This document shows, piece after piece, positions 34,186-51,918 of a DNA stretch of 64,000 nt. Position 1 is the stretch's first letter. Every line of letters begins with the position of its first letter. A program made the position numbers and the translations under genes. The notes below the pieces were generated by a model. It was not told where the DNA came from. It made no database searches and was given only the letters and a program-made list of their open reading frames with translations. This stretch comes from Marinobacterium aestuarii (GTDB taxonomy: Bacteria > Pseudomonadota > Gammaproteobacteria > Pseudomonadales > Balneatricaceae), in assembly GCF_001651805.1 (NCBI RefSeq), contig NZ_CP015839.1, forward strand, positions 4,650,001 to 4,714,000, given 5' to 3'.

Positions 34186-34650
34186 TCAGGCTCCGCCGTG
34201 GAACCCCTGCTGCCGCCAGGCCTCATAACTGATAATCGCCACCGCATTGGATAGATTCAACGAGCGGTTATTCGGCATCATGGGAATACGCAAGCGCTGA
34301 TCCGGCGCAATGCCTTGCATCACTGAATCCGGCAGGCCGCTGGTTTCAGAGCCGAACAAAAGCACATCGTCGGGCCTGTATTCAATCTGATCGTGGGACT
34401 GGGTGCCCTTGGTGGTACAGGCCAGAATCCGCCGGCCCTGCATGGCGATTATAAAGACGCCATAATTTTCATACCGGTGCACACGGGCGAGATCATGATA
34501 ATCCAGCCCCGCCCGGCGCAGATTCTTTTCCTCCAGATCAAACCCCAAAGGCTCAATCAGGTGCAGCGTGCAGCCATTATTGGCCGCCAGCCGAATAATA
34601 TTGCCGGTATTGGGTGGAACCCTCGGCTCATAAAGTGCGATATGAAACAT
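34186..34650 (-). CDS. trmL: tRNA (cytidine(34)-2'-O)-methyltransferase TrmL
   Basis: A 154-residue SPOUT methyltransferase that methylates the wobble ribose of tRNA-Leu isoacceptors. Motifs: [19 protein letters not shown] at the start, [13 protein letters not shown] in the middle, and [24 protein letters not shown] in the trefoil-knot region. The length is right for TrmL. In Pseudomonas trmL follows secB directly; here 32 kb of other genes lie between them. Confidence 0.94.
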
Positions 34651-34742
34651 GCAATGTCAGCCAGCGTCAGCCGTAAAGGCAGCCATTATACATGGGCCTT
34701 TGCATTAACCGACATCCGCGGTAATAGCCAACACTGTACTGA

Positions 34743-35378
34743 TCAGGAGATCATTGGCCAGGATTGACCCCGGCTCACCAGGGACCTTATCTCCGCGGTC
34801 TGGTGATGGGGGACTCGCCGGTGCGCACGGGCGGCCAGCCCGACAAAGGCCGTTTGCAGTATTTGCACCAGATCTCCGTGGGACACCAGCAACAACACTT
34901 CTCCGGCATGGCGCGTATCCAGCGCCCGTAACGTATCAAGCCCACGCTGCAGAACGCAGCTTACCGGCTCAACGGCGCCCTGCCCCTGGCTCCCTGCGTC
35001 TTCTGCGGCCTTATCAAGGCTGCCATCGGTGTCGGCTTCATCCTGCTGCCAAACCTGCCCGTAGCCGCTGTCCGCCTGACCTTCCCAGCCCCCGAAAAAT
35101 CGCTCCCGCAGGCCGACATCCAGTTCAGGCGATGGCAGCTCGAAATAACGGGCGGCCAGCACCGCCGTTTGCCGGGCACGCAGAAAATCAGAGCTGATCA
35201 CCCGCGTCGGCCGCGGGCCCTCAAAGTGCGCCAGCGACGCCTGCACCTGGCGCTCGCCTTCTTCAGTCAAACCGTAGGCCGTCGTGCCTATAAAGGGCGC
35301 ACTGACGATCAACCCGGCCACATTGGCTTCGCTTTGGCCATGGCGCATCAGGTAGTAGCTGTTGTTAAATTGCGTCAC
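34743..35378 (-). CDS. Histidine phosphatase-family protein
   Basis: A 211-residue member of the histidine phosphatase (phosphoglycerate-mutase-like) superfamily. The active-site signature YLMRHGQSEAN is at about residues 8-18, the second histidine is in LLLVSHGDLVQ, and an RARQT segment and RFFGGWEG are also present. No signal peptide is visible, so it is cytosolic. The start codon lies 56 bases behind the stop of the last phnE gene on the same strand, so it may close that operon and release phosphate from an imported phosphoester. The substrate is not known. Confidence 0.82.
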   Translation of the reverse strand: MTQFNNSYYLMRHGQSEANVAGLIVSAPFIGTTAYGLTEEGERQVQASLAHFEGPRPTRVISSDFLRARQTAVLAARYFELPSPELDVGLRERFFGGWEGQADSGYGQVWQQDEADTDGSLDKAAEDAGSQGQGAVEPVSCVLQRGLDTLRALDTRHAGEVLLLVSHGDLVQILQTAFVGLAARAHRRVPHHQTAEIRSLVSRGQSWPMIS

Positions 35379-35433
35379 GACTGTTGCTCTCCCCTCCCAA
35401 AAAAGCCCGCCATTGCCCGGCCTCTAACCGACA

Positions 35434-36255
35434 TCATAGAAGTCGCTTGCGGATATTCACCACCAGGATTTCCGCCAGTATGACCACGACAAAAATCGCC
35501 AGCAGCGCCATGGCCACCCGCTGCCATTCGAACAGATTCATGGAGTCGCTGAGCACTACGCCGATACCGCCTGCGCCCACCAGCCCAAGCACCGCCGACT
35601 CGCGGACATTAATGTCCCATCGAAACAGCACTATGCTGAAAAACGCCGGCAGAATCTGTGGCCAGTACCCCTTGAGCAGAATCGCCGCCCATGAAGCGCC
35701 CGTTGCCGTCAGGGCTTCGATGGGGCCCATATTGATCTCTTCGATGGCCTCACCCAGCAGCTTGCCGACAAAACCCACCGAACGAAAAGCAATGGCCAGC
35801 ACGCCTGCAATCACCGACGGGCCGAAGATGGCCACAAACAGCAGCGCCCACACCAAAGAATTGACAGAGCGGGACGATACCAGGAAAAAGCGCGCCACCC
35901 AGTGACACCAGGGCGATGCCACCACATTACTGGCGTTCATCAGCGCCAGCGGAATGGCAAAAATCAGCGTCAGCAGCGTACCCAGGGTCGCGATATTGAG
36001 TGTTTCGAGCATGGCATCGTGCACCGAAACCGGATAGTAGGCGAAGTCTATCGGCCACATGCGGGTAAACATGTCGGCCATCTGTTCGGGCGCATCATAG
36101 AAAAACTCAGGAATCACTTCCACCGTCTGCATCGACAGCACCAGCGCCATGACCAGCACCAGGTAAACCGCATAACGCGACAGTTTCTGACTCAGGGTAA
36201 AGCGCTGCCAGTGGTGATCGATGCCGGTCTGGGGGGTCGCGGTCGATGTTTTCAT
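35434..36255 (-). CDS. phnE: Phosphonate-type ABC transporter permease (PhnE), second copy
   Basis: A 273-residue inner-membrane permease of the PhnE type with about six membrane segments and the cytoplasmic coupling loop EAIEEINMGPIEALTATGAS followed by GYWPQILPAFFSIVLFRWDINVRES and GLVGAGGIG. It overlaps the first phnE by 4 bases (ATGA). Two different PhnE permeases presumably form the heterodimeric channel. Confidence 0.93.
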   Translation of the reverse strand: MKTSTATPQTGIDHHWQRFTLSQKLSRYAVYLVLVMALVLSMQTVEVIPEFFYDAPEQMADMFTRMWPIDFAYYPVSVHDAMLETLNIATLGTLLTLIFAIPLALMNASNVVASPWCHWVARFFLVSSRSVNSLVWALLFVAIFGPSVIAGVLAIAFRSVGFVGKLLGEAIEEINMGPIEALTATGASWAAILLKGYWPQILPAFFSIVLFRWDINVRESAVLGLVGAGGIGVVLSDSMNLFEWQRVAMALLAIFVVVILAEILVVNIRKRLL

Positions 36256-37052
36256 TTGAAGATCCTGCGCACCAGGTTGGAAAGAAACTCGCCAAACATG
36301 ATCAGGGCAATAATGACGATCAGGATGGCGGCGACAAAGTCATAGTCAAAGCGCTGGAAAGCCGAAAACAGCGTACCGCCCAGGCCGCCGGCACCGACTA
36401 TACCCACCATGGTGGAGTTGCGCAGATTGGAATCCAGCTGATAGGTGGCAAAGCCCAGAAAGCGCGAGAACACCTGTGGCATCACCGCAAACAGCACGAC
36501 ACTGACAAAACTGGCGCCGGTGGCACGAATCGCCTCAACTTGTTTGAGAGATATTTCCTCTATGGCTTCGGCAAACAGCTTGGCGATAAAGCCAATGGAA
36601 GCGACCACCAGGGTCAGGATGCCGGCCAGGGCACCAAAGCCCACACTCTTGACGAACAGGATGGCGATAATCACCGGATGAAAGGTACGACAGAGTGCAA
36701 TCAGCGCTCGCACCGGGCTACTCACCCAGCCACTCATCATATTGCGCGCCGCAAAGAGCCCCAGAAACAGCGACACGACTATGCCGACAAAGCTGGCTAT
36801 CACGGCTATTTCAAGGCTTTCGATCAGGCCGCCAAGCAGCAGTTCCCAGCGACTGAAGTTGGGCGGGAACATCTTGTCCAGCAGGTTGCCGGCAAAGCCC
36901 ATACCGGTGCTTATACGATCCCAGCTCAGCCCCAGCGCATTGACCGAATACAGCAGATAGCCCGCCAGCAGCAGCCAGATGCCGGTCACGAACCCGTTGC
37001 GCGCAAAGGGGTTAGGCCTTGCCTGCCCGGCAACAGACTTTACGCCAGCCAT
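36252..37052 (-). CDS. phnE: Phosphonate-type ABC transporter permease (PhnE), first copy
   Basis: A 266-residue permease with about six membrane segments, with the coupling loop [20 protein letters not shown] and the typical [20 protein letters not shown]. It overlaps the end of phnC by 13 bases. It probably dimerises with the second PhnE. Confidence 0.93.
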
Positions 37053-37807
37053 GACTCACCTCCGTAGATCAGTTTCAGATGCGCATCGGAAATGCCCTCT
37101 GGGCTGCCGTCATACACCACCTTGCCGCCGGCCATGCCGATCATGCGCCTGGCAAAACGCCGGGCCAGGGTTACGTCATGGATATTCACCAGCGCCGGAA
37201 TGTTTTTCTCCTGTGCAAAGCGTTCCAGCAGCTCCATGATCTCCACGGCGGTCTTGGGGTCCAGTGAGGAGGTCGGCTCATCGGCCAGCAGAATGCGCGG
37301 ATCCTGCATGACAGCCCGGGCAATGCCGACACGCTGGCGCTGGCCGCCGGACAGGCTGTCGGCGCGCTGGGTGGCGTGTTCGCTCAGGCCCACCGCATCC
37401 AGCAACTCGAAGGCGATATTGATATCCTGCTGGCTGAAATTGCGCCGCCAGGCACGCCAGGCCGACATATACCCCAGCCGCCCGGTGAGCACATTTTCGA
37501 TCACGCTCAGGCGCTCCACCAGGTTGTATTCCTGGAACACCATGCCGACATGCCGGCGCAGTTTGCGCAGCTCGCCACCCCTGGCATCGCACAGATCTGC
37601 CTGGTCAAACATGATCTGCCCGGCGGTGGGCTCGATCAGGCGGTTGATACAGCGCAGCAGCGTACTTTTGCCGGTACCCGAGGGGCCTATAATGGCAATA
37701 ATACCGGGTTCGGTGATCGTAATATCAATGCCCTTGAGTATAGGGTTACCACTCACATATTCTTTTTTAAGGCCTTTAATCTCAAGAAACGCCTGAGCAG
37801 AAGACAT
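37040..37807 (-). CDS. phnC: Phosphonate-type ABC transporter ATPase (PhnC)
   Basis: A 255-residue ATPase with Walker [11 protein letters not shown]-loop [12 protein letters not shown], signature [14 protein letters not shown], and Walker [13 protein letters not shown]. PhnC-like features are the [29 protein letters not shown] stretch and ASLDPKT-like [13 protein letters not shown] chose ATG 37807 (AGGA at 7 bases) over an upstream TTG. A stable hairpin separates it from the diesterase gene. Confidence 0.93.
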
Positions 37808-37890
37808 AGCCAAATCCTGTAAACATGAAAATTGGGTGCACCAATGCGCAGGAGCCAGAAAGGTCCAGTCAGGGCACAGGCACAGGGGTA

Positions 37891-37924
37891 GCGACGCCCG
37901 GACCTAAACCGGCCCCGGCGTCGC
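37891..37924 (-). other. Intergenic hairpin between the diesterase gene and phnC
   Basis: GCGACGCC pairs with GGCGTCGC (8 bp) around an 18-base loop. There is no T-run on the minus strand, so I read it as an RNA-stabilising or processing element rather than a terminator. Confidence 0.4.
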
Positions 37925-37941
37925 TTTTAAAGCCGGGAAGC

Positions 37942-39201
37942 TTAGCTGGAACAGCCGGCGTAGTAAGTCACAGTGGCGGGCCAGTCGGAGAAGACACCAA
38001 TCACACCCACGTCCTGCACCAGTACGTCCAGCAGGTCGAAGGTATTGCCGTCATTGCTGGTGATATCGTTGATGCTCTGGTAATACCAGCCACCGCCGCC
38101 GTTCAGCGGCCCTGAGCGCTCAAGGCTCCAGGTTATGATATCGAGGCCGGCATCCTTCGCAGCCGTGGCATAGACCGAGGGTACTATCTTGCCGTTTTCG
38201 GCCGTCACCAGCATCCACAGCGGCGGCGCTATGATCTTGACGCCCATCGCCTGCAGCTCGCCCATGCTGGGCGACCAGGTGGCGGGATTACTGTAGTCAA
38301 AGCCTTCGATGTCATAGCGATCATCCAGATACACGCCCTGGGCGCCAAAGGCAGGCTCATTCGCCAGCCAGTATTTCACGTCCTCCAGATTAAAGGACTG
38401 CGCCAGCACATTAGCCGGATCCACGCCCAGCTCTTTGTAATCATTGATCATCTGCTGGGCGTAGTCGTGCTGGCTATAGTCGCCCTCAAACGGCATTTCC
38501 ACCGCGGCGCCCTTGAGCTCCGGCGTCATTTTCACACCCAGCTGCTGAAACAGCGCGATGCTCTGACGGTGACTCATCAGGGTGCCGTTAGCGGCATACA
38601 GATCGGTGCGATAGGCGGCGGTGGAATTCATGTATTCCTCCAGCGTTTTCGCCTCCTTGTTGCCGGCGTCCATCTTGCCCTTGAGGGACAGGAACTCATC
38701 CAGCGTCACATCACTGGTGCGACACTCCACATCCTTGAAGGGCGTGTCGCTGCTGTAGTCCGGCGCCACTGTGCATTTTTCCGCCAGCTCCGGCACCGCC
38801 AGAATATTGGTGGTGGTGTGCAGATCGCTCTGGGAATGGCGGCATACCAGTTCACGATCCTTGGTAAAGGTCACATCACATTCCACCACGCCGGCACCCA
38901 TGCGCGCCGCAGCAACGTAGGACTCACGGGTATGCTCGGGGAACTGCAGGGGCGCGCCACGGTGGCCGATGGACAGGTCAGAGCGGGAGAAGCTCTGATC
39001 CTTGCAGGCACTGAGGCGTTCTTTCAGCGGGCTGTCCTGCATCGCATCGATCAGGTAGAAAGGCCGGGGTCCCAGCTGCGCCGCCGCCATCTCGGCTTTG
39101 GCGCCCGCATCGGTGGCCGTGGCGGCAAAGGCGCCACCGGCCATGCCCGCCAGCAGAGTCATGCCCGCCAGGGCATGCAGGCTTTTGGTCAGTTTTTTCA
39201 T
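37942..39201 (-). CDS. Secreted glycerophosphodiester phosphodiesterase
   Basis: A 419-residue exported enzyme with a signal peptide ([18 protein letters not shown]). The GDPD barrel shows [18 protein letters not shown] with the catalytic His and Arg-Gly, [19 protein letters not shown] with the metal-binding Glu-x-Asp and second His, and later TPELKG and [10 protein letters not shown]. It should cleave glycerophosphodiesters to glycerol 3-phosphate and an alcohol in the periplasm. It lies between phnD and phnC in the transport operon, an uncommon arrangement suggesting that its product or a related ester is what the transporter imports. Confidence 0.9.
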
Positions 39202-39445
39202 GGTTCATCCTTAGCAGGTTCCCGTACGAGGGAGACCTGCGGTTATGCGATTCAAGGAGTTCGGGCGCCACCACAGACTGCAGCAACGCCCACAGAGTCG
39301 GAGTGCTAAACAGCGCTCCCCGGGCCCACAGGGCCGGGGAACAGCGTACGGCTGCGATGTTGCAATAAGGGTGCACGCGGCCGGCAAAGTCCGGCCCCGG
39401 TCACCCGCAGTGCAGCAGCACGCCGGCCTGCCTGGCGGGTGAAAC

Positions 39446-40498
39446 TCAGCTGCTTGTCTTGGCCGCTTCAGCGGCGACCTGCTCGGCCCGCTTCTTGGCC
39501 GCCTTGGCAGCATCCTTTTCAGCCAGTGCCTTGAGGCCGGCCTTGGAATAGGCAGTACCTGTGGCATGGGCTATATCGCGGATAACCTTCCAGTCTTCCT
39601 GGTAAGTCACGGGGTAGAAGCGATCGGCACCGTTAAAGGTTTCGGTCATTTGCGCCGAGAAGCGGAAGCTGGCGAACGCCTGCTTGATCTTCTCGACCAG
39701 CTCAGGGTGCAGGTCATGGGCGTAGCCAAAGGCCGACGTCGGGAAACGCGGGCTGGTGTAGATAATACGGAAGTCATCCAGCTTGATGCGCTCGGCGGAC
39801 ACCATGCGATCGAACACATCGGAGGCCACGGGCGCGGCATCGTAGTCACCGCTCAACACGCCCATGATCGACTGATCGTGTTTGCCGGAGTATTTAACGG
39901 TGTAGTCAGTGTCCGGCGTAATGCCCAGCGCCGGGAACAGTGCCCGGGGGGCCAGATTACCGGAGTTGGACGACGCCGATGTGTGTGCCACCAGCTTGCC
40001 TTTCAGATCCGCCATGGTCTGAATCGGGCTGTCCTTGCGCACTATGGTAATCAGGTTATAGCCCTGAAAGGAATCGGCGGTGCCCTTTACGGCAATGGGA
40101 ACATAGCCGCCGAGGTTGACGGCGTAACCGGTCGGGCCGGTGGAGAATCCGGCGATATGCAGCCGGCCGGAGCGAATGGCTTCCACTTCAGCGGCATTGG
40201 AATGCACGGTGTAATAGATCACCTTTTTGCCGGTGGCTGCACTCAGATGCTGCTGAAACTCCTGGAACGCATCCTTGTACACGGCTGGGTCTTCCACCGG
40301 GGTGTAGGTGAACACCAGGGTACTGGGGTCACGCCACTGGGACGCATCCTTGGGCGAATCCGCCACCAGATCCTTGTTCTCGTCGCAGAACTTGTCGTCC
40401 AGCACGCCACGGTGGCTGCACTCATCGGCGTTGGCGATACTCGCACCCAGTAGCAGGGAAGCCGTCAGAAGCAGGCCGGTTAGGGATTTTCTTAGCAT
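39446..40498 (-). CDS. phnD: Phosphate/phosphite/phosphonate ABC transporter binding protein (PhnD)
   Basis: A 350-residue periplasmic protein with a signal peptide ending near SIANA-DECSHRG. The PhnD family is seen in VFTYTPVEDPAVYKDAFQEF, KVIYYTVHSNAAEVEAIRSGRLHIAGFSTGPTGYAV with the anion-binding Ser-Thr-Gly loop, LVAHTSASSNSGNLAPRALF and GDYDAAPVASDVFDRM. The Lys-rich tail after residue 325 is unusual. It is the first gene after the predicted sigma-54 promoter. Whether it binds phosphonate, phosphite, phosphate or a phosphoester cannot be read off. Confidence 0.92.
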   Translation of the reverse strand: MLRKSLTGLLLTASLLLGASIANADECSHRGVLDDKFCDENKDLVADSPKDASQWRDPSTLVFTYTPVEDPAVYKDAFQEFQQHLSAATGKKVIYYTVHSNAAEVEAIRSGRLHIAGFSTGPTGYAVNLGGYVPIAVKGTADSFQGYNLITIVRKDSPIQTMADLKGKLVAHTSASSNSGNLAPRALFPALGITPDTDYTVKYSGKHDQSIMGVLSGDYDAAPVASDVFDRMVSAERIKLDDFRIIYTSPRFPTSAFGYAHDLHPELVEKIKQAFASFRFSAQMTETFNGADRFYPVTYQEDWKVIRDIAHATGTAYSKAGLKALAEKDAAKAAKKRAEQVAAEAAKTSS

Positions 40499-40600
40499 TG
40501 TTTTTATCCTTGTCGCTCATCGTGTTGGCGCCGCCCGATATCCTGCGGCGGCGGTGCTACGCAGCCCGGACACTGCCAGGCTTAGTCGACGGGATAGATA

Positions 40601-40615
40601 GCAAGATCAGAACCA
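40601..40615 (-). promoter_or_regulatory. Sigma-54 promoter of the phnD operon
   Basis: Minus strand TGGTTCTGATCTTGCT has GG-N10-GC spacing and an exact TTGCT at -12. Start predicted near 40590, 92 bases before the phnD ATG. A sigma-54 response regulator gene is the next gene upstream. Confidence 0.68.
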
Positions 40616-40658
40616 ATAATTAAAAGTCTTTATTTTACAGCTAGTTATATTTAATCAT

Positions 40659-40696
40659 CGGGTCAAGTACCCGCCCAAACGGGACACTTCAGACCC
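40659..40696. promoter_or_regulatory. Candidate upstream activator sites for the phnD promoter
   Basis: CGGGT-N5-ACCCG at 40659-40673 and GGG-N10-CCC (GGGACACTTCAGACCC) at 40681-40696 lie 70-107 bases upstream of the predicted start, the right place for the adjacent sigma-54 activator. The two sites are only loosely alike, so this is a candidate. Confidence 0.4.
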
Positions 40697-40719
40697 ATCC
40701 AGCCGCCCCTAAAAGACAG

Positions 40720-42072
40720 CTATGACCCATCATCCTCGCCAGCCTTGAACAGTTGCTTGTCCAGCCGATGCTTCTTCATCTTGCGGTACAGCGTCTTGCG
40801 CGACAGGTTAAGACGCTGTGCCGCCGCATTGAGTTGTCCCTGCGCCGCCTTGAGCTCTTCGCGGATAATGTGCCGCTCGTAATGATCCATGCGTTCCTCA
40901 TAGCCGCCCGGCGCCTCATCCGTGGCCATGGCGCTCTCGCCTATACCCAGCACAAAGCGATCGGCAGCATTCTTGAGTTCACGCACATTGCCCGGCCAGT
41001 CGTGCTGCAGCAGACGGGTGCTTTGTGCCGCACTGAGTTCCGGCAGGGGCCGCGCGAAACGCTCGCAGGCCTGCTGGGCATAATGATGGAACAGCGGCAG
41101 CACATCTTCGGGCCTGTCGCGCAGTGCCGGAATGCTCAGGCTGGCCACACTGAGGCGGTAATACAGATCCTTGCGAAAGCGCCCCTCTTCCCCCAGCTGG
41201 GCCAGATCGTCCTTGCTGGCCGCCAGCACCGTGAGCGACACCGGAATAGGCGTGCTGCTGCCGACCCTTTCTATGCTGCGTTCCTGCAGCACCCGCAACA
41301 GCTTGACCTGCAACGACAGCGGCATGGATTCGATTTCATCCAGAAACAGGGTACCGCCATTGGCCACTTCAATCTTGCCAATATGGCGCTTGCTGGCGCC
41401 GGTGAAGGAGCCCGCCTCATGACCGAACAGCTCGCTTTCAATCAGGCTTTCACTCATGCCGCCGCAGTTAATGGCCACGAAACGCTTGTCACGCCGGGCA
41501 CTGCACTGATGCAGCGCCCGGGCCACCACATCCTTGCCGCTACCGGTATCGCCGTAAATGACCGTATCCACATTCGCCTGGGCCAGGGCCAGCACCTGCT
41601 GGCGAATGCCCTTGATGGCCGCGGACTCACCGATAATCGAGGCTTCGAGCCCGCAGCGCGCCTCCAGATTCTGCCTCAGGCTGCGGTTATCCAGCACCAG
41701 GCGCCGCTTGTCGATGGCATGGTGCAGGCGCGACAGCAGGTGCTCGGGCTGCAAGGGTTTTTCCAGAAAGTCGTAGGCGCCCTCCTTCATGGCCTCGATG
41801 GCCATGGGAATATCGCCATGGCCACTCATCAGCAGCACCGGTATTGCCGCATCCAGTTGCTGCAAGCGGGCCAGCAGATCGAGGCCATTGAGCCTTGGCA
41901 TCCGCACGTCACTCAGCACCACCACAGGACTGTCCGCGTGCAGGGACGCCAGCGCCTTTTCGGGTTGCGCAAAGGCCTGCACGCAGAAATCGTCCAGCTC
42001 CAGCATTTCGGTCAGCGCTTCGGTGATTTCTGCATCATCGTCGATGATGACGACCTGGATATCGCTATGCAT
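40720..42072 (-). CDS. Sigma-54-dependent response regulator (PgtA/DctD-like)
   Basis: A 450-residue regulator: receiver domain (residues 1-125; acidic DDD near the start, phosphoacceptor in VVLSDVRMPRLNG, Lys in DFLEKPL), AAA+ domain (about 145-380) and Fis-type helix-turn-helix. The Walker A reads GDTGSGKD instead of the usual GETGTGKE, and the sigma-54 contact loop reads GSFTGA instead of GAFTGA, both within what the family tolerates. ATG 42072 overlaps the kinase stop by 8 bases, so the two are translated together. It should act at the sigma-54 promoter of phnD, divergent in function though on the same strand. Confidence 0.88.
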   Translation of the reverse strand: MHSDIQVVIIDDDAEITEALTEMLELDDFCVQAFAQPEKALASLHADSPVVVLSDVRMPRLNGLDLLARLQQLDAAIPVLLMSGHGDIPMAIEAMKEGAYDFLEKPLQPEHLLSRLHHAIDKRRLVLDNRSLRQNLEARCGLEASIIGESAAIKGIRQQVLALAQANVDTVIYGDTGSGKDVVARALHQCSARRDKRFVAINCGGMSESLIESELFGHEAGSFTGASKRHIGKIEVANGGTLFLDEIESMPLSLQVKLLRVLQERSIERVGSSTPIPVSLTVLAASKDDLAQLGEEGRFRKDLYYRLSVASLSIPALRDRPEDVLPLFHHYAQQACERFARPLPELSAAQSTRLLQHDWPGNVRELKNAADRFVLGIGESAMATDEAPGGYEERMDHYERHIIREELKAAQGQLNAAAQRLNLSRKTLYRKMKKHRLDKQLFKAGEDDGS

Positions 42073-43981
42073 GCTGTCCCGCCCTTTTGAGTACCAGAGT
42101 AAAGGTGCTGCCGTGCCCCTGGCGGGATTGCACCCGAATATGCCCGCCAAAATCCTGCACTATGTTGTAGCTGATCGACAAGCCCAGACCCAGGCCTTCG
42201 CCGACCTCCTTGCCGGTAAAAAACGGATCAAAGATCTGCCCCAGCTGATCCGCCACCATGCCGATACCGCTGTCCTGCACCTCAACCATGACAGTATCGG
42301 CCGCCTGCCCAAGCCGAATGTTCAGGCGCCGGACCTTGCTGTTTTTCATCGCATCAATGGCATTGCTCAGCAGATTGACCAGCACCTGTTCAAGCCGAAT
42401 CGGCTCCGCCTCGACCCTGAGCCCTGGGGGGCCAGGTTCATAACAAAGTTCGCAGTCCACGTCCGCCAGCCGCGCCGACATCAGCTCCAGTGCTTCCCGG
42501 ATGACCCCATCCAGATCCACCGGACTCAGCTCAGTGCCGGCCTCGCGGGCAAACGCCTTGAGATGGCGGGTAATGCTGGCGATCTTGTCCAGCAGCTGGC
42601 GAATCTTGTTCAGACTCAGGCGCGCCTGCTCCGGCTGCTGCCGGTCGAGCCTGCGCCCGGCGCTATGCAGATGACTGGCAATGGCGGTGAGCGGCTGATT
42701 GATTTCGTGGGTAATACCGACACTCAACTGACCCAGCGCCGCCAGTTTGCCGGCCTGTATCAGTTCGTTCTGGGCCGCCTTGAGCTGCGCTTCGGCGGTG
42801 ATGCGCTCGTCGATTTCGGCGGCCAGGCGCTGATTGGTGCGCTCCACCTCGATGGCGGTTTTCTGAAAATGCTTCAGATCCCGTGCCATGGCGGAGACCT
42901 CGTCGTCCCCCAGAATGCGGATATTAGTATCCAGCTGCGCCGAGGCGATGGCACGCATGTTCTGCTGCAGTTCAATAATGCGCTGCAGCACGTTGCGTCG
43001 CACGTAAAACCAGGAGATCGCGCAGGCCACTACCAGACTGATCAGCGACAGCAACAGGCTGCTGCGAATACTGACATTGATCGACAGTATGGCCGCCTGC
43101 AGCGAGTCACTGATACTGGCGTTGGTCTGGTTGGTATGGTGATTAATCTGGGTGGCCAGCTGCTGAATATGCTGCTGACTGTTTTCCAGAAAGAAGCTCT
43201 GCTGATACAGCAGGTCGAGCTCTTCATTCTTGAGCGCAAAGAGCGCTCCTGCGCGCGAACCGATCCGCAGCAGTTCGTGCAGATCATCGATCAGCTCGGG
43301 TTCGATAGTATCGGGGGCAATGCCCTGCAACTGCTGTCGGATCTGTGCACCCAGCAGCTCCAGTCGCAAAAAGGTGTAGTCCAGGTCATTGAAGGAGGCG
43401 TCATTGCGCACCTTTTCAACCATGCCGGAAAAATAATACAGCCGGCTGATCACAGCTCCCAGGGCGTCGCCGGACAGCGCATGATGGGACGCCTCCAGCC
43501 GCTGGATAAACTGCGAAAACAGCGGAAACACCCGGTTCGACTCCAGCGCCAGCTCGCGCCTTATTTGCTCACGCCGCTCCACGCTCTGATTCAGCAGCAC
43601 CAGACTGTTCTCGATCTGCACGATCAGCTCGCTGAAGTAGCGGTTATAGTCCGGCAGATTGCGCATCAGCTGGTCCATATCCAGGATAGCCCCGCGCAGT
43701 TCACCCATCGCCTGCTGGCGCGCCAGGTTGGAGTCGCTGGTCACCAGCAGGGGTGCCGTGGCCACCACCAGCCGGCTCGTGTTGTTCAGCCGCGCGGCCG
43801 CATCCAGCCCCGGAATATCCTGCTCTTTCAGCGCCAGCAGCCGTTCGCTCAGGTCCAGATAGGTATTGGTGGCCAGACCGCTGGCCAGCACCGTAATGGA
43901 CGAAATCAGCACAAAGGCCAGAAACAGCCGCCCGCCAATACCGAGCCGTTTCAACCCCGGAATAGCCCCCACCCGCATCAC
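42065..43981 (-). CDS. Sensor histidine kinase (PgtB/DctB-like)
   Basis: A 638-residue inner-membrane kinase. A membrane segment near residues 17-38, a long helical periplasmic domain (about 40-310), a second membrane segment (about 312-330, LISLVVACAISWFYV), a HAMP-like region, and then the kinase core with GITHEINQPLTAIA around the phosphorylated His, NLLSNAIDAM, DSGIGM, FDPFFTGKEVGEGLGLGLS. The size and all-helical sensor resemble PgtB, which detects phosphoglycerates in Salmonella. Its neighbour is the cognate regulator, so the signal is probably a phosphorylated compound outside the cell. Confidence 0.85.
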   Translation of the reverse strand: MMRVGAIPGLKRLGIGGRLFLAFVLISSITVLASGLATNTYLDLSERLLALKEQDIPGLDAAARLNNTSRLVVATAPLLVTSDSNLARQQAMGELRGAILDMDQLMRNLPDYNRYFSELIVQIENSLVLLNQSVERREQIRRELALESNRVFPLFSQFIQRLEASHHALSGDALGAVISRLYYFSGMVEKVRNDASFNDLDYTFLRLELLGAQIRQQLQGIAPDTIEPELIDDLHELLRIGSRAGALFALKNEELDLLYQQSFFLENSQQHIQQLATQINHHTNQTNASISDSLQAAILSINVSIRSSLLLSLISLVVACAISWFYVRRNVLQRIIELQQNMRAIASAQLDTNIRILGDDEVSAMARDLKHFQKTAIEVERTNQRLAAEIDERITAEAQLKAAQNELIQAGKLAALGQLSVGITHEINQPLTAIASHLHSAGRRLDRQQPEQARLSLNKIRQLLDKIASITRHLKAFAREAGTELSPVDLDGVIREALELMSARLADVDCELCYEPGPPGLRVEAEPIRLEQVLVNLLSNAIDAMKNSKVRRLNIRLGQAADTVMVEVQDSGIGMVADQLGQIFDPFFTGKEVGEGLGLGLSISYNIVQDFGGHIRVQSRQGHGSTFTLVLKRAGQHA

Positions 43982-44084
43982 AGCCGCCCCGCATTCTTAT
44001 GCTTATTATGCGCAGCGATGCCGCCACGGCAGTGATGCAACATGCAGCAAAGCAGCGGTGAGCGCAAGGGCGCGGCACATCACT

Positions 44085-44702
44085 CTAACCGGCAATCAAA
44101 CTCATCAGGGGAGCGCCTGCGGAAGACATTAGCCAGCCCAGCACCGCGCAGTTGGCGCTAACGGTCAGCCAGAAAACAAAGCGAAAGGAGCCCTTGATCG
44201 ACTTGTGACGCAGGATCTGCTGTGCCGCCATGGCGCCCGGCCAGCCCCCCAGCAACGCCAACAGATGCAGCCTGCTTTCCTGGGTACGCCACTGCCCTTT
44301 CTGCGCGGCGGACTTGTCCCATGCGTAGGTGCCAAAGGTCACCAGGCTGACCAGTGCGTAGAGGCCGGCCAGCAACAACGGCAACTTGCCCAGCATGGCC
44401 GCAACGGCGACAAAGCCCAGAAAGATACCGGCAAACAGCAGCCCCAGGGTCCCGTTGCCACTGGAGCGCCTGGACACACGGGCTTGACGCCTATCGCCGG
44501 GATAGCTGACCTTCAGCGCCTGGGGGCGACCGCGCTCACCGGTGCCCGGGGTGTAGACCACGACATCCTGCACAGAGGGGCGCAAGCGCCGGCTGGCAAA
44601 GGCCGAGATATGCACGAACACAGGCTCGCCGCCGCCATCAGGGGTTATAAAGCCAAAGCCCTGGTCATCTTTCCAGCGCGTGATGCGTCCCTGCAATCGC
44701 AT
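44085..44702 (-). CDS. Cold-shock domain plus DUF1294 membrane protein
   Basis: A 205-residue two-part protein. Residues 1-65 are a cold-shock nucleic-acid-binding domain (GRITRWKDDQGFGFITPDGGG, VFVHISAF). Residues about 85-200 are a DUF1294 membrane domain with three or four segments and the signature GGWPGAMAAQQILRHKS-K-SFRFVFW. The combination is frequent in gammaproteobacteria; function unknown. It appears to be a single-gene unit between the kinase and the polyamine locus. Confidence 0.88.
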   Translation of the reverse strand: MRLQGRITRWKDDQGFGFITPDGGGEPVFVHISAFASRRLRPSVQDVVVYTPGTGERGRPQALKVSYPGDRRQARVSRRSSGNGTLGLLFAGIFLGFVAVAAMLGKLPLLLAGLYALVSLVTFGTYAWDKSAAQKGQWRTQESRLHLLALLGGWPGAMAAQQILRHKSIKGSFRFVFWLTVSANCAVLGWLMSSAGAPLMSLIAG

Positions 44703-44904: not shown

Positions 44905-45717
44905 TTACAGGGGCGCCTGATTAGCCAGATGATCCAAAAAGAGGGAGAACAGCTCGGACTGGGTCGAAGTATTGAGGCGGGCGTGCATATTCTTGCGATG
45001 CACCTTCACTGTGCCGCTACTGATATGCAGCTGGGCGGCGATGGCATCACTGGAAAAGCCCTGCAGCACCAGCCCCGCGACCTCCTGCTCCCGCGCGGTG
45101 AGTATGCCGCAACCAAAGGTTTCCATCGCCTGGGCCAGGGCGCCGCCGGATTTGCGCTCGTTCAGATATCGCCCCGACTGCACCAGCCAGAACTGTTTCA
45201 CCAGGGCGCTGAGCACCGGAAACAGCGCCTGAAGCCCAAGACGCTCGGCCCGCGTCACTGAGCCGAGTTCCTGCCGGCGACCGATAGAAACGGTAAAAGC
45301 GATGCCAGGTTCGGGATAGATAAACAGAACCACCTCGTCGATAAGACCGAATTCGCGGTAGCAGCTGCGATAGTAATCACTCTGCTCAAATGAATCGGGC
45401 GCTATATCGGCCAGGCGCTGTACGCCGGGGCGAATCTGGCGGCGAATGGCGTTGAACACCGGGTCCAGCATATAGGCTTCATTCAGATAACGGCACATGG
45501 CGGCGCTGCGCGGATCACTCGCCAGCGGGTGCAGCACCCGCGGTCTGTCCTGCTCGCGGTAGACTGCCAGCAGCATGGTATCAAAATGCACCATCCGCCC
45601 CAGCGCGCTGGCCAGTGCCTGGGGGAAGCCCGGCAGACGGATGTGATCGATCAGCTGAGCCACTTCCCGCGACCAGACACTGGCGGCACTCAGTTCAGAT
45701 GTATTTGCGCAGTACAT
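44905..45717 (-). CDS. LuxR-family regulator of the polyamine locus
   Basis: A 270-residue regulator with a GAF-like or uncharacterised N-terminal sensing region (residues about 20-180) and a C-terminal LuxR helix-turn-helix (about 205-262: LTAREQEVAGLVLQGFSSDAIAAQLHISSGTVKVH). There is no acyl-homoserine-lactone signature that I can recognise. A perfect 12-bp inverted repeat lies 33 bases upstream of its start codon and may be its own operator. It shares the strand with the glutamine amidotransferase and pot genes. Confidence 0.8.
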   Translation of the reverse strand: MYCANTSELSAASVWSREVAQLIDHIRLPGFPQALASALGRMVHFDTMLLAVYREQDRPRVLHPLASDPRSAAMCRYLNEAYMLDPVFNAIRRQIRPGVQRLADIAPDSFEQSDYYRSCYREFGLIDEVVLFIYPEPGIAFTVSIGRRQELGSVTRAERLGLQALFPVLSALVKQFWLVQSGRYLNERKSGGALAQAMETFGCGILTAREQEVAGLVLQGFSSDAIAAQLHISSGTVKVHRKNMHARLNTSTQSELFSLFLDHLANQAPL

Positions 45718-45870: not shown

Positions 45871-46677
45871 TCATGTATTAACCCGCGGGTTAATACCACT
45901 TATTCGCGGTGCGCAGGCCGTCGCATTCGCCCCGGAGCCGGTACAGTCCGCAGGCATCAGGCCCTGTCGTCGGAAGAACTCCACCAGCCAGCGGGCCACC
46001 CGGCCTGAATCGTTGAGCGCATCCGCTGCCCGCAGGCCGCTCAGTGCCACATCAGCCTGAGCCTGTGGCAATCGCTCGCCTTTCACCGCCTCGAGCAGCG
46101 CCGCCGTATAGTCGAGCGTGAACTCGGGATGCGCCTGGAAGCTAATCACGCTATCGCCGTAACGCAGCGCCGCGTAGGGGCAAAAATCGGAACTGGCAAA
46201 CACTTCAGCCGTTACCGGTTTTTCCACCACCTGATCCTGATGCAGCGCATTGAGCACCAGAGTGTCACCGCGTCCGCCCAGCCCCTTGCAGGGCCCGACC
46301 TGTTGATACTGATGCACGCCAAGCCCCCAGCCACGGGCGGATTTTTCGACCCGCCCACCCAGCGCACTGGCGATGATCTGATGCCCAAAGCAGATTCCCA
46401 GCAGCGGACGGCGCTGTGCTACCAGCTCCAGGATCAGGTCACTGAGGCGGCGCATCCAGGGCAGGTCCTCATAGACGCCATGGCGCGAGCCGGTAATGAT
46501 CCAGCCATCGCACAGGTCGGGCGCGGGCGGGAAAACCCCATCCACCACCTGGTAACGCTCGAACCTCAAGCCCGGGTCCGCCGCGCCCAGCATGCGCACG
46601 AACAGATCGGCATAGCTACCGTACTGTGCCGCCAGCGCCTGCGGGCTGGTACCGGTTTCGAGAATGCCTATCTTCAT
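45871..46677 (-). CDS. Class I glutamine amidotransferase-like protein
   Basis: A 268-residue protein of the GATase type 1 fold. The nucleophile is Cys96 in GICFGHQ, with His183 and Glu185 in QAHPEF, and WIITGSRHGVYEDLPW matches GMP-synthase-like amidotransferases. Such proteins (YfeJ type) hydrolyse glutamine or gamma-glutamyl amides. In this locus gamma-glutamyl-polyamine chemistry is a possible role, but it is not the PuuD family. Its last eight codons lie within a 22-bp perfect palindrome. Confidence 0.8.
   Translation of the reverse strand: MKIGILETGTSPQALAAQYGSYADLFVRMLGAADPGLRFERYQVVDGVFPPAPDLCDGWIITGSRHGVYEDLPWMRRLSDLILELVAQRRPLLGICFGHQIIASALGGRVEKSARGWGLGVHQYQQVGPCKGLGGRGDTLVLNALHQDQVVEKPVTAEVFASSDFCPYAALRYGDSVISFQAHPEFTLDYTAALLEAVKGERLPQAQADVALSGLRAADALNDSGRVARWLVEFFRRQGLMPADCTGSGANATACAPRISGINPRVNT
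45875..45896. promoter_or_regulatory. 22-bp perfect palindrome overlapping the amidotransferase 3' end
   Basis: Each half reads GTATTAACCCG then its complement, with no mismatch over 22 bp. It covers the codons for Gly-Ile-Asn-Pro-Arg-Val-Asn-Thr before the stop. No T-run follows, so it is not a standard terminator. Chance occurrence of a perfect 22-bp palindrome is unlikely, but it may be a coding artefact. Confidence 0.45.
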
Positions 46678-46752
46678 TGCCTGTCTACTCCACTGTTATT
46701 CACTGGGCACCGCGTTGCCCGCTACGCCACAAAAGCCCGAATGTCCGCTATC

Positions 46753-47571
46753 TCAGGCATTGCTGCGCACACTGCGTGACTGGCGGCGCAGCTGCCAGGT
46801 GGCGCCCAGGACACTGACAGCCACCACCAGAATCATCAGGGTTGCCAGCGCATTGATTTCGGGGGTCACGCCCAGACGCACCTTGGAAAAAATCACCATC
46901 GGCAGGGTACTGTTGCCGGGGCCTGACACAAAGCTTGCGATCACCAGGTCATCCAGCGACAGGGTAAAGGACAGCAGCCAGCCGGAGATCAGCGCCGGCG
47001 ATATCAGCGGCAGCGTGACCAGGAAAAACAGCGTCCAGGGCTTGGCCCCCAGATCCATCGCCGCCTCTTCCAGGGATTCATCCAGGGTCGCCAGACGTGA
47101 CTGCACCACCACCGCCACATAGGCCATGCAAAAGGTGACATGGGCGATGATCACCGTGGTGATGCCCCGTCCTGCCGGCCAGCCGAAGCTGCCTTCCAGC
47201 GCCACAAACAGCAACAGCAGGGACAAACCGGTGATGACTTCGGGCATCACCAGCGGAGCGGTAATCATGCCCGACAGCGCCATGCGACCGCGAAAGCGGC
47301 CAAAGCGCGACAGGCAGAAACCCGCCAGGGTACCCAGCACCACCGCCAGGCTGGCGCTGATCACGGCCACTTTCAGGCTGACAATGGCGGCATCGATAAT
47401 CTGCTCGTTGTCCAGCAGCGCGCTGTACCACTTGAGGGAAAAGCCCCCCCACACGGTCACCAGCTTGGAGGCATTAAAGCTGTAGACGATCAGCGAAATA
47501 ATCGGGGCGTACAGAAAGGCAAAGCCCAGCCAGGACGACAGCTGCAAAAAACCCGGTTTGCGCCTCTTCAT
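46753..47571 (-). CDS. potI: Polyamine ABC transporter permease PotI
   Basis: A 272-residue inner-membrane permease with six hydrophobic segments and the coupling motif EEAAMDLGAKPWTLFFLVTLPLISPAL. It overlaps potH by 4 bases and ends the potFGHI set. The FVSGPGNSTLPMVIFSKVRLGVTPEINA stretch is characteristic of PotC/PotI permeases. Polyamine (putrescine) import is inferred from the whole set. Confidence 0.93.
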   Translation of the reverse strand: MKRRKPGFLQLSSWLGFAFLYAPIISLIVYSFNASKLVTVWGGFSLKWYSALLDNEQIIDAAIVSLKVAVISASLAVVLGTLAGFCLSRFGRFRGRMALSGMITAPLVMPEVITGLSLLLLFVALEGSFGWPAGRGITTVIIAHVTFCMAYVAVVVQSRLATLDESLEEAAMDLGAKPWTLFFLVTLPLISPALISGWLLSFTLSLDDLVIASFVSGPGNSTLPMVIFSKVRLGVTPEINALATLMILVVAVSVLGATWQLRRQSRSVRSNA

Positions 47572-48542
47572 GTTCTCTCCTCCCGCCGCCCCTGGGCGTT
47601 GCGCAATAACATGATGGGCATGACCAGGAACAGCAGCATCAGAATCGCCACCGCCGATGCCCGTGGCCAGTCACGATTGAGGAAGAACTCGTCCCAGAGT
47701 ACCCGGCCTATCATCAGCGTATCTGAGCCACCGAGCAGCGCCGGAATGACGTACTCCCCCAGCGCCGGAATAAACACCAGCAGACAGCCGGCCAGCATAC
47801 CCGGCAGCGACAGCGGCAGCGTCACCAGAAAAAAGCGCTGCATCGGCTTGCAGCCCAGATCCTCGGCGGCTTCGAGCAGACTGATATCGAGTTTTTCCAG
47901 GGTGCTGTAGAGCGGCAGCACCATGAACGGCAGATAGGTATAGATGATGCCGATATAGATGGCGAAGTCGGTCTGCAGCATGATCAGCGGCTCGTCGATC
48001 AGCCCCATGGACAGCAGCAGCTCGTTCACCACGCCATTCTTTTTCAGAAAGCCCATCCAGGCATAGACCCGCAGCAGGAAGGAGGTCCAGAACGGCAGTA
48101 TCACCAGGGACAGCAGAATCACCCGGTTGGACGGGCTGCTGCGGGCAATCATGTAGGCCATGGGATAGGCCAGCAGCAGGGTAATAAAGGTCGAAATGGC
48201 CGCCACCTTGATGGAATTCAGGTAGGCCTCCAGATAGAGCGAATCTTCGAACAGGAACAGATAGTTGCCGAGGTTCAGCTGCAGCGAGGCCAGGGCCAGG
48301 TCGGCGTCCCACTCGAACAGTGCAGTATAGGGCGGCACCGCGATGGCGGGCTCCGCCAGGGAAATTTTGAACACCACCACAAAGGGAATCAGGAAGAACA
48401 GTGCCAGCCAGAAGGTCGGGATCGAGGCCACCAGGGTTTTACCGGGCTGCAATCGGGCGCTCAGCCCGTGCAGTGCCTGGCGCCATAGCCCGGACACAGC
48501 CCCGGTAGCCGCGGGTATGAATGCGCTCGTGCGGCGGTTCAT
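47568..48542 (-). CDS. potH: Polyamine ABC transporter permease PotH
   Basis: A 324-residue permease with a longer N-terminus and six membrane segments, including the coupling motif EAAEDLGCKPMQRFFLVTLPLSLPGM and the typical PALLGGSDTLMIGRVLWDEFF. I chose ATG 48542 because it overlaps the ATPase stop codon as ATGA; the longer frame adds residues that lie within the ATPase gene. Confidence 0.93.
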   Translation of the reverse strand: MNRRTSAFIPAATGAVSGLWRQALHGLSARLQPGKTLVASIPTFWLALFFLIPFVVVFKISLAEPAIAVPPYTALFEWDADLALASLQLNLGNYLFLFEDSLYLEAYLNSIKVAAISTFITLLLAYPMAYMIARSSPSNRVILLSLVILPFWTSFLLRVYAWMGFLKKNGVVNELLLSMGLIDEPLIMLQTDFAIYIGIIYTYLPFMVLPLYSTLEKLDISLLEAAEDLGCKPMQRFFLVTLPLSLPGMLAGCLLVFIPALGEYVIPALLGGSDTLMIGRVLWDEFFLNRDWPRASAVAILMLLFLVMPIMLLRNAQGRREERT

Positions 48543-49705
48543 GATGTCAGCACCACGCAGCTGTCGGCACCCCAGCTCAGATACACAGGATCGCGGCACT
48601 GAATGCGCTCATCAAAGCGCCGCGCCATGTTGGGTTTGGTGACCCGCACCATCTGGCCGCTGGCAAGACGCACCCGAAATACCGACAGGCTCCCCATATA
48701 AGCCACCTCATCCACGTTGCCGCTGATGCAATTGTCAGCGTCCGCCGGGCGGGTACGGGAAATGCGCATTTTCTCCGGTCGCACCGCCGCCCAGACCTTC
48801 TGACCCAGGGTGCAGCTGATACCATGGTTGACGAAGAGTTCTGCGCCGGCCTGCTCCGAGCGGATACGTACCGAATCCACTTCGTCTTCGCTGATCAGGC
48901 CTTCAAACAGATTGATGGCCCCCACAAAATCAGCCACAAAACGGCTCTGCGGATATTCATAGACCTGGTGGGGCTCGCCCACCTGCACGATGCGGCCCTG
49001 GTCCATGACGCCGATCCGGGTCGAGAGCGTCATGGCCTCTTCCTGATCGTGGGTCACGACCATAAAGGTCACCCCCAGGTTCTGCTGGATATTGATCAGC
49101 TCGAACTGGGTTTCCTCGCGCAGCTTCTTGTCCAGTGCCCCCAGGGGCTCGTCCAGCAACAGCAGCTTGGGGCGCTTGATCAGCGCCCGGGCCAGGGCAA
49201 TGCGCTGGCGCTGACCGCCGGACAGCTGGTGGGGCTTGCGCCGGCCCAGGTGCCCGAGCTGCACCAGCTCGAGCATTTCGGCCACCCGCTGTTTCACCTC
49301 GGCGCGGGGCACGCCGTCACGCTTGAGACCAAAGGCCACGTTCTGCTCCACCGACAGGTGCGGAAAGAGCGCGTAGGACTGGAACATCATATTAACCGGA
49401 CGCTTCCAGGCCGGGATGGCCGAGATATCCACTCCGTCAATCAGAATCCGGCCGCCGCTCGGCGCCTCAAAGCCCGCCAGCATGCGCAGCAGCGTACTCT
49501 TGCCGGAGCCAGACCCGCCCAGCAGGCAAAACAGCTCCGATTGGTAGATATCCAGCGAAATGGCGTCGACGGCGGTAAAGTCGCCAAACTGCTTGCTAAC
49601 ATTTTCTATGCGCACAAAGGGTTCGGCGTCAGGGCGCGCCCAAAGCGGCAGGGCTTCAAGCGGCGACTGATCAACCTGCTGAAGAAGAGAGTCATTGAGC
49701 TGCAT
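48539..49705 (-). CDS. potG: Polyamine ABC transporter ATPase (PotG/PotA)
   Basis: A 388-residue ATPase. It has Walker A LGGSGSGKST, signature [14 protein letters not shown], Walker B LLLLDEPLGALD and a C-terminal TOBE domain (residues about 300-385, VWAAVRPEKMRIS). The N-terminal 27 residues precede the usual start of homology. Arrangement potF-potG-potH-potI with overlaps is that of a putrescine importer. Confidence 0.93.
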   Translation of the reverse strand: MQLNDSLLQQVDQSPLEALPLWARPDAEPFVRIENVSKQFGDFTAVDAISLDIYQSELFCLLGGSGSGKSTLLRMLAGFEAPSGGRILIDGVDISAIPAWKRPVNMMFQSYALFPHLSVEQNVAFGLKRDGVPRAEVKQRVAEMLELVQLGHLGRRKPHQLSGGQRQRIALARALIKRPKLLLLDEPLGALDKKLREETQFELINIQQNLGVTFMVVTHDQEEAMTLSTRIGVMDQGRIVQVGEPHQVYEYPQSRFVADFVGAINLFEGLISEDEVDSVRIRSEQAGAELFVNHGISCTLGQKVWAAVRPEKMRISRTRPADADNCISGNVDEVAYMGSLSVFRVRLASGQMVRVTKPNMARRFDERIQCRDPVYLSWGADSCVVLTS

Positions 49706-49769
49706 CGAAAAATCCTCACAAATTGCGTCGGCGATCGCCGCCGCGCCTCGAAAGCGCGGCGGCCGGCTT

Positions 49770-50861
49770 TCAACGACCCGTCTTGATGCGGGTCCAGGAG
49801 CGGGTCAGCAGACGATCGAAACGGGCACTGTGGGCATTTTGGGAAAACAGATTGGCTTTCACCTGCGCCGGCGGGTAAATGCCGGGGTTGCTGCGCACAT
49901 CGTCATTCAGCAGCGACTCGGCACCGGTATTGGGTACCGCGTAATAGACGAAGTTGGAAATACCGGCGGCCACGTCCGGCTGCAGCACGAAGTTAATAAA
50001 GCGGTGCGCCGCCTGCGGGTTGGGCGCATCCGCCGGAATCACCATGAGGTCAAACCAGGCCAGGCTGCCCTCATCCGGGATGCTGTACGCCACCTTTACG
50101 CCCTGGCCAGCACTGGCGGCGCGATCCTGGGACTGCAGCATATCGCCGTTATAACCCACCGCAACGCAGATCTCGCCGTTAGCCAGATCGCTGATGTATT
50201 GCGATGAATGGAAATACTTGATGCTCGGCTGCGCCGCCGCCAGCATCACTTCTGCCTTTTTCAGGTCATCCTTGTCTTCACTGTTGGGATCCAGCCCCAG
50301 ATAATTCAGCGCCACGGCTACCACCTCGGCCGGGGAATCCAGCACCGCGATGCCGCAGTCCGCCACCTTTGCCGCCAGTTCCGGCTTGAAGATCAGATCC
50401 CAGGAGCTCACGGGCATATCACCCAGACGCTGCCTTAGCATGTCCTGGTTATAGCCAATGCCGATGGTGCCCCAGGTATAGGGCACACCGTGACTGTTAT
50501 CCGGATCATGCCGGGACACGGTCTCAAGCAGCTGCGCATCCAGATTGGCGTAGTTGCTCAGCTGGCTGCGATCCACTGCCGCGTAGATACCGGCCTGAAT
50601 CTGGCGCTCCATAAAGGCGCCGGTCGGCACCACCAGGTCATAGCCGCTGTGGCCCGACATCAGCTTGGCTTCCAGCACCTCGTTGGAATCGTAAACGTCG
50701 TAGTTCACCTTGATGCCGGTCTCGGCCTCGAACCGACTGATGGCTTCGGGGGCTATATAGTCCGACCAGTTATAGATATTCAGTACCTGCTGTTCGGCGG
50801 CGGCCGAAACAGACAGTGTGCACCCCAGGATGGCGGCAAGTGTGGCGGATTTCATGTTCAT
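49770..50861 (-). CDS. potF: Polyamine-binding periplasmic protein (PotF/SpuD-like)
   Basis: A 363-residue binding protein with signal peptide (MNMKSATLAAILGCTLSVSAAA) then EQQVLNIYNWSDYIAPEAISRFE, the hallmark of PotF/PotD proteins. YDLVVPTGAFMERQIQAGIY, AGIYAAVDRSQLSNYANLD, HGVPYTWGTIGIGYN and YSIPDEGSLAWFDLMVIPADAPN complete the family pattern. Putrescine is the likely ligand, because the set pairs with an aminotransferase. Start ATG 50861 is about 120 bases from the shared GntR operator. Confidence 0.93.
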   Translation of the reverse strand: MNMKSATLAAILGCTLSVSAAAEQQVLNIYNWSDYIAPEAISRFEAETGIKVNYDVYDSNEVLEAKLMSGHSGYDLVVPTGAFMERQIQAGIYAAVDRSQLSNYANLDAQLLETVSRHDPDNSHGVPYTWGTIGIGYNQDMLRQRLGDMPVSSWDLIFKPELAAKVADCGIAVLDSPAEVVAVALNYLGLDPNSEDKDDLKKAEVMLAAAQPSIKYFHSSQYISDLANGEICVAVGYNGDMLQSQDRAASAGQGVKVAYSIPDEGSLAWFDLMVIPADAPNPQAAHRFINFVLQPDVAAGISNFVYYAVPNTGAESLLNDDVRSNPGIYPPAQVKANLFSQNAHSARFDRLLTRSWTRIKTGR

Positions 50862-51897: not shown

Positions 51898-51918
51898 ATT
51901 ATTGCGTTGACTTTTTAA

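Follow-up and report, generated by a model that had tools for sequence, protein, structure and literature searches.

What is carried into the cell by an operon whose binding protein, ATPase and permeases all belong to phosphonate-uptake families, when the gene of a putatively exported glycerophosphodiester phosphodiesterase (GDPD) stands among them, and by what switch is such an operon turned on? The question is raised by a 64,000-nucleotide stretch of the Marinobacterium aestuarii genome (5.19 Mb, single contig; NZ_CP015839.1, positions 4,650,001 to 4,714,000), here called the window, in which eight minus-strand genes run from 43981 to 34743 in the order sensor histidine kinase, NtrC-type response regulator, phnD, GDPD, phnC, phnE, phnE and histidine phosphatase. 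Assignment with Pfam and NCBIfam profiles at family cut-offs agrees with a first-pass annotation of the window on families, gene order and coordinates. That annotation had proposed a self-contained sigma-54 circuit for sensing, cleaving, importing and dephosphorylating phosphoesters, an interpretation that we find partly supported: the phosphoester role, the sigma-54 control and the gene order stand, whereas the GDPD as a fixed component and a ligand clue drawn from likeness to PgtB do not. Our reading, held with a probability of roughly 0.77, is that the locus is an inducible glycerol-phosphate uptake operon comprising a GDPD, a GpxB-type importer and a sigma-54 two-component switch of its own.

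The argument about the ligand starts from the PhnD-family binding protein (39446..40498), whose N-terminus, MLRKSLTGLLLTASLLLGASIANA, looks by eye like that of an exported protein, as does that of the GDPD. Among solved structures searched by sequence, its closest match is 9LF9, the structure of GpxB (E 4.7e-75), with PtxB (4.8e-18) and E. coli PhnD (1.4e-9) far behind. GpxB, published in December 2025 from Phaeobacter and Marinobacter as the glycerol-1/3-phosphate binding protein of an ATP-binding cassette (ABC) transporter, binds glycerol-1-phosphate with a dissociation constant of 1.7 µM and glycerol-3-phosphate with one of 1.1 µM, other C3 phosphates being bound significantly more weakly or not at all, and its ligand residues are Thr111, Gly112, Tyr138, Ser168, Asn169, Ser170, His199, Arg223 and Thr247 (PMC12718374). 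The window protein aligns with GpxB at 46% identity and has eight of these nine residues, namely all seven that contact the phosphate head (Thr111 to His199) and, of the two at the glycerol tail, Arg223; Ser replaces Thr247, both here and throughout the 35 regulator-linked proteins defined below, which all carry the same nine-site set. PtxB, which reads PLYSTSHHY at these sites, keeps four of nine. In phylogenetic trees the 63 proteins without Thr247, that of the window included, form one clade (IQ-TREE 100, FastTree 0.78), sister to or nested within the Thr247 group, itself a clade in FastTree (0.74) and not in the IQ-TREE rooting; the 35 regulator-linked proteins together with those of three regulator-less loci (L040, L060, L063) likewise form one clade (support 92 and 0.94). 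The window protein is thus described as a Ser247 relative of GpxB, predicted from these residues and from the gene neighbours of its relatives to bind glycerol-1/3-phosphate. As a separate observation, loci from Rhodocyclaceae and related bacteria (L066, L067, L073-L075, L078) have two or three tandem phnD-type genes that differ in their pocket residues (for example TGFSTSHQN, TGVSNSHHD and AGYSNSHRG), which suggests that one transporter might there serve several ligands.

The genes that adjoin relatives of the transporter point to glycerol phosphate as the ligand. A plasmid survey gave 900 records with a match, of which 40 were listed and 19 loci fetched, 16 of them annotated. Among these 16, a HAD hydrolase stands beside the transporter in ten (L083, L085-L089, L093, L095, L098, L099), a DeoR/GlpR-type regulator in seven (L083, L086-L088, L095, L098, L099) and a glycerol-3-phosphate dehydrogenase in three (L087, L088, L093). 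Roseomonas and Pseudoroseomonas, both with Ser247, have a GlpR-type regulator, a HAD hydrolase, the transporter and glpD in a row, and a Thr247 relative from Deinococcus lies beside a HAD hydrolase and a glycerol-3-phosphate dehydrogenase. Such neighbours are missing from the remaining six of the 16: Pseudosulfitobacter and Ruegeria TM1040 plasmids have a different two-component pair, those of Shinella and Ensifer have a second kind of ABC transporter next to this one, a Ketogulonicigenium plasmid has nothing informative beside the transporter, and on an Agrobacterium plasmid (L096, 1-14915) a GpxB-type transporter with Thr247 has phoB/pst genes on one side and an arsenic resistance cluster on the other. 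Eight further genome loci contribute three HAD hydrolases, two DeoR-type regulators, two histidine phosphatases and one AraC-type regulator as neighbours. In Marinomonas phaeophyticola (L042), a ugp-type group read from translations, composed of a binding protein (cut), permeases and an ATPase, then a GDPD, a DeoR-type regulator and a HAD hydrolase, begins 1.6 kb past the second phnE on the opposite strand. The window genome itself encodes a GlpD homologue elsewhere (52% identity to that of Roseomonas); its best match to GlpT, at 236 bits, is below the cut-off of 408.

Predicted sigma-54 control of the transport operon is strongly supported by comparison across loci. The regulator gene (40720..42072), assigned by Pfam and NCBIfam, has its probable start at the ATG at 42072 rather than at the TTG at 42150 and encodes a receiver, an AAA+ module with a GAFTGA-type loop (here GSFTGA) and a helix-turn-helix. 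Ahead of phnD on the same strand lie two dyads, predicted regulator sites and both recognized by comparison across loci, GGTCATAGCTGTCT (40714..40727), which overlaps the regulator stop codon, and GGTCTGAAGTGTCC (40682..40695), and then a -24/-12 promoter, TGGTTCTGATCTTGCT (40600..40615). The comparison rests on 35 regulator loci: the window, L023, L156, L157, plasmid locus L081 and 30 named genome loci (L033-L039, L041-L059, L061, L062, L064, L065). L021 and L033 are the same genome, of which L033 alone was counted, and L062 and L081, whose GSFTSA loop is missed by a GAFTGA-type pattern, were placed with the regulator loci and not with the controls. Kinase, regulator and phnD occur together in all 35, with phnC and two phnE following wherever the contig continues; the kinase and regulator genes of L065 are divergently oriented. 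TGG-N8-TTGC was present no more than 300 bases from phnD at 32 of the 33 loci first sorted as regulator-linked, against 0.46 expected from dinucleotide shuffles. In the final sorting a -24/-12 site is found at 35/35 loci, 34 with TTGC and one with CTGC (L081, ahead of its GDPD), that of L064 lying beyond the 300-base search range, whereas a sigma-54 core is found at 5 of 52 loci without the regulator, 150-299 bases away.

The dyads form a putative two-part enhancer that the first-pass annotation, whose assignment of the promoter to the neighbouring sigma-54 regulator is otherwise supported, did not contain. A pair with the consensus GGACA-N4-TGTCC, 31-33 bases apart (32 bp in the window), precedes the -24/-12 site in 31 of 35 loci, whereas L061, L064, L081 and L157 deviate in spacing. 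Measured back from the -24 TGG, the dyads begin at 110-112 and 77-80 bases in 30 of the 35; in L065 the pair is shifted. A summed double-dyad score of at least 15 out of 20 is reached by 32/35 regulator loci (16 in the window) and by 0/52 controls, for which stretches of 140 bases ending 110 before the gene were scored without a sigma-54 site as anchor. The spacing of about three helical turns fits two regulator dimers on one face of the DNA. Since the pattern of the window's own dyads and spacing has its only exact match in the genome at the phnD promoter, the regulator looks dedicated to this operon; looser sites would escape the pattern. The window's sigma-54 site means little by itself, because a loose consensus with up to three mismatches occurs 323 times in the window against 366 expected, and it gains its weight from conservation across the regulator loci. 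The earlier remark that a Pho box was not seen also holds: three loose matches occur in the window versus 4.4 expected, none of them upstream of phnD, where the best score is 8 of 14. No sigma-70-like site was found in 34600-44200, with 3.6 expected. Two candidates were discarded, namely further enhancer targets in the genome (three places with three mismatches versus 15 in a reversed-pattern control, hence chance) and a 10-bp palindrome within the regulator coding region, set aside once the intergenic dyads appeared. Separately, a second NtrC-type sigma-54 response regulator is encoded in the window at 54281-55714.

Upstream of the regulator, the kinase gene (42065..43981) encodes, according to Pfam, NCBIfam and a structure model, a helical sensor region followed by HAMP, HisKA and HATPase domains. 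Residues 1-400 were modelled as all-helical (mean predicted local distance difference test 80, predicted template modelling score 0.58). Besides HAMP, the sensor gave no Pfam match above cut-off, the TorS sensor match being sub-threshold (E 7e-4), and against solved structures it gave weak matches to the HAMP part only. Of 293 genomes of the order, 10 have a match to the first 400 residues (E up to 1e-25), exactly those genomes having a PhnD of at least 74% identity, and each time the sensor is encoded within a few kb of the transporter. Two distant sensor relatives were examined of 61 plasmid records with a match, mostly Sinorhizobium. On pSymA of Sinorhizobium meliloti (L190, 5737-9478), an adenylate cyclase with a distantly kinase-like N-terminus directly follows a lone solute-binding protein gene; in Chelatococcus (L191, 4610-12563), a solute-binding protein, a related kinase, a sigma-54 regulator, a second solute-binding protein and an ABC transporter stand in a row. 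Both relatives thus adjoin solute-binding proteins, with HAMP accounting for part of the similarity. Sensing through the binding protein would be the most likely route, given the precedent of AioX-AioS-AioR, in which a binding protein of the PhnD fold is teamed with a kinase, and the regulator acts on an RpoN promoter (PMC5908839). We go one step further only tentatively, at somewhat less than even odds, in proposing that the GpxB-type protein has two jobs, feeding its own ABC transporter and, when loaded, docking onto the neighbouring kinase at its helical sensor to fire the sigma-54 promoter.

The GDPD (37942..39201; Pfam and alignment) appears catalytically intact, with eight checked positions in the motifs that we take to be catalytic (HRG, ExD, distal His, ExK) invariant in 40/40 aligned rows, two of which are one gene, and six Cys conserved in 39-40 of the 40. 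It scores 37 bits against a GlpQ equivalog cut-off of 254 and, as judged from its sequence, is a subfamily apart from GlpQ. GDPD genes and such transporters adjoin in five arrangements. The phnD-GDPD-phnC order of the window, which the first-pass annotation had suggested looking for elsewhere, recurs exactly in three other genomes (L023, L033, L034), with remains of it in L022, whose contig breaks off within the GDPD gene; the other four are regulator-GDPD-phnD (Vibrio L081), phnE-GDPD (L029, with the GDPD after the second phnE and phnC running off the contig end), phnE-HAD-DeoR-GDPD (L152) and GDPD-phnD (L153). In a tree of the 40 rows the transporter-linked copies fall in four places (topology only); the loci labelled solo there were read with short flanks, and L144 among them is the linked gene of L152. 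Within the genus, four of seven genomes have a strong GDPD match, located away from the transporter in one of the four (G004). Across the 293 genomes, 41 have a PhnD relative, 54 this GDPD type (E up to 1e-60) and nine both, the two being neighbours in three of the nine (G000, G036, G258). G258 has two GDPD paralogues (L152, L153), each beside a different Thr247-type transporter and in a different gene order. One enzyme family has thus been joined repeatedly to one transporter family, in the Ser247 and Thr247 groups alike, which argues for a shared pathway. Still, the GDPD is an accessory part of the circuit, not the fixed component it had been taken for: among the regulator loci readable past phnD (L044, L059 and L064 left out), it is present in five of 32 (window, L023, L033, L034, L081). 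The histidine phosphatase (34743..35378; Pfam), which has an RHGQSEANVAG motif and is by eye without a signal peptide, occurs in 10 of 30 regulator loci readable past the second phnE, the contigs of L044, L045, L052, L059 and L064 ending too early.

On the strength of the genes observed, the ligand residues matching those of GpxB, the footprint left by promoter and enhancer, the joint occurrence of kinase with binding protein and the repeated pairing with GDPD, we infer the ligand, the signal, the order of steps and the phosphatase substrate as follows. In the periplasm, the exported GDPD would release sn-glycerol-3-phosphate from deacylated phospholipid head groups, acting before uptake because GpxB binds the monoester. 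The PhnD-like protein would bind glycerol-3-phosphate, and probably also glycerol-1-phosphate, for import by the PhnC-family ATPase (37040..37813; NCBIfam; listed start TTG, with an ATG two codons inside) and the two PhnE-family permeases (36252..37052 and 35434..36255; NCBIfam). Imported glycerol-3-phosphate would be oxidised by GlpD, and the histidine phosphatase could strip phosphate from either isomer. Glycerol-1-phosphate should not be oxidised by GlpD, and our guess is that the phosphatase may let the cell use it. The kinase would sense the substrate, most likely via the binding protein, and phosphorylate the NtrC-type regulator, which would then bind the two GGACA-N4-TGTCC-like dyads 32 bp apart and activate the sigma-54 promoter before phnD. 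Stable RNA hairpins on either side of the GDPD gene, between phnD and GDPD (39310..39445, z -2.7) and between GDPD and phnC (37814..37941, z -2.0), may perhaps tune expression of binding protein and enzyme.

Several observations weigh against this reading. The ligand may have shifted from that of GpxB, because identity is only 46%, Thr247 is replaced, and residues 124-125, which directly follow two phosphate ligands, belong to a set (77, 82, 95, 97, 99, 124, 125, 237) characteristic of the regulator-linked proteins and seldom seen among the other 60; these clade-specific residues may alternatively serve signalling. GDPD is missing from 27 of the 32 readable regulator loci and the phosphatase from 20 of 30. 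Relatives from Shinella, Ensifer and Rhizobium adjoin a different ABC transporter. A sigma-54-like core turns up in five controls, more often than shuffling predicts (1.3 for the 54 loci first sorted as controls), and many regulator loci come from Marinomonas, so the locus counts overstate their independence. The observations on pocket and gene content lend some credit to an importer of another small phosphomonoester (e.g., a sugar phosphate, phosphoglycerate or dihydroxyacetone phosphate), the GDPD then being co-regulated for a different purpose, as do the resemblance of the kinase transmitter to PgtB and the phosphatases of two folds beside relatives. We nevertheless judge such an importer quite unlikely, since glpD and GlpR-type genes adjoin Ser247 relatives, GDPD pairing is repeated and GpxB bound other C3 phosphates significantly less or not at all (PMC12718374).

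That the operon imports phosphonate or phosphite and acquired its GDPD by chance is what its profile scores would suggest at first sight, PhnC (319 vs 266 bits) and both PhnE (287 and 260 vs 217 bits) being above the phosphonate-transporter equivalog cut-offs and PhnD above that of the broad phosphate/phosphite/phosphonate subfamily (185 vs 112 bits). Yet PhnD falls well short of its own equivalog cut-off (131 vs 261 bits), its ligand residues fit GpxB and not PtxB, relatives adjoin glycerol-phosphate genes, and the C-P lyase lies elsewhere, the only phnJ match of the genome being ~1.1 Mb off and 4 kb from another PhnD relative (23% identity). We consider this alternative very improbable, and the preference for a phosphoester over a phosphonate in the first-pass annotation can be sharpened to predicted glycerol-1/3-phosphate. 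A third alternative concerns the signal: the kinase might sense phosphate limitation or the state of the envelope instead of the transported substrate, the operon then being a sigma-54 starvation response. The missing Pho box, by which phosphate control, if any, would take another route, and a sensor without Pfam match above cut-off apart from HAMP leave room for it; the confinement of the sensor to 10/293 genomes, each time near the transporter, the solute-binding proteins beside the two distant relatives examined, and the rise of the Phaeobacter GpxB level with glycerol-1- and glycerol-3-phosphate (PMC12718374) make it unlikely.

Viewed against known systems, we judge the predicted glycerol-phosphate operon to be a GpxB-type importer with a new form of regulation, a sigma-54 two-component switch of its own. 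The described GpxB transporter has the same composition of PhnD-family binding protein (8/9 ligand residues shared), PhnC-type ATPase and PhnE-type permeases; the window differs in Ser for Thr247, in the 46% identity and in having its own NtrC-type pair, a sigma-54 enhancer and a GDPD in the operon. Searched by term, the main text of the GpxB paper yields neither two-component nor phosphodiester, and it leaves regulation to future work (PMC12718374). AioX-AioS-AioR shares the PhnD-fold protein, kinase, regulator and RpoN promoter, but AioX, which binds arsenite, signals only, whereas the window protein is part of a full ABC transporter (PMC5908839). These two precedents weaken the earlier claim of a system unlike the known Ugp or Phn systems. 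In Chelatococcus L191 the N-terminal part of the kinase aligns with 91% of the query at 25% identity, HAMP counted in, and a sigma-54 regulator, an ABC operon and solute-binding proteins are likewise present; the transporter family differs. A kinase and a sigma-54-type regulator also control organophosphate (phosphoglycerate) uptake in PgtA-PgtB-PgtC-PgtP, with an antiporter where the window has an ABC transporter. The likeness to PgtAB, earlier offered as a ligand clue, does not serve as one: the window proteins are far below the equivalog cut-offs (PgtB 221 vs 1000 bits, PgtA 338 vs 650 bits), and the PgtB match spans kinase residues 229-627 only, leaving the sensor region uncovered. UgpBAEC-UgpQ and GlpQ-GlpT share the combination of diesterase and glycerol-3-phosphate uptake; the former has the unrelated binding protein UgpB (CUT1 family), and uptake in the latter is by a major facilitator superfamily carrier. 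In Salmonella, ugp is under Pho control (PMC10715179).

Elsewhere in the window, the gene of a protein ending in a GerE (LuxR-type) domain (44905-45717) adjoins a cold-shock/DUF1294 gene, and at 45871-53441 a glutamine amidotransferase, an ABC permease, an ABC ATPase with TOBE and a solute-binding protein are followed by a class-III aminotransferase on the opposite strand, a cluster that looks like one for polyamine use.

With this locus, a marine branch of GpxB-type transporters gains a concrete regulator, promoter and enhancer, and the idea that organophosphate use can be switched by sigma-54, independently of the Pho regulon, becomes open to test. If the binding protein does feed both transporter and kinase, a PhnD-family protein would be transporting and signalling at once, in a family whose only signalling members, as counted in 2018, were AioX orthologues (PMC5908839), and in GDPD-bearing lineages the operon would make its own inducer. 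More widely, a group of genes that carry the phosphonate-uptake label phnCDE would, on this evidence, be scavengers of lipid backbones.

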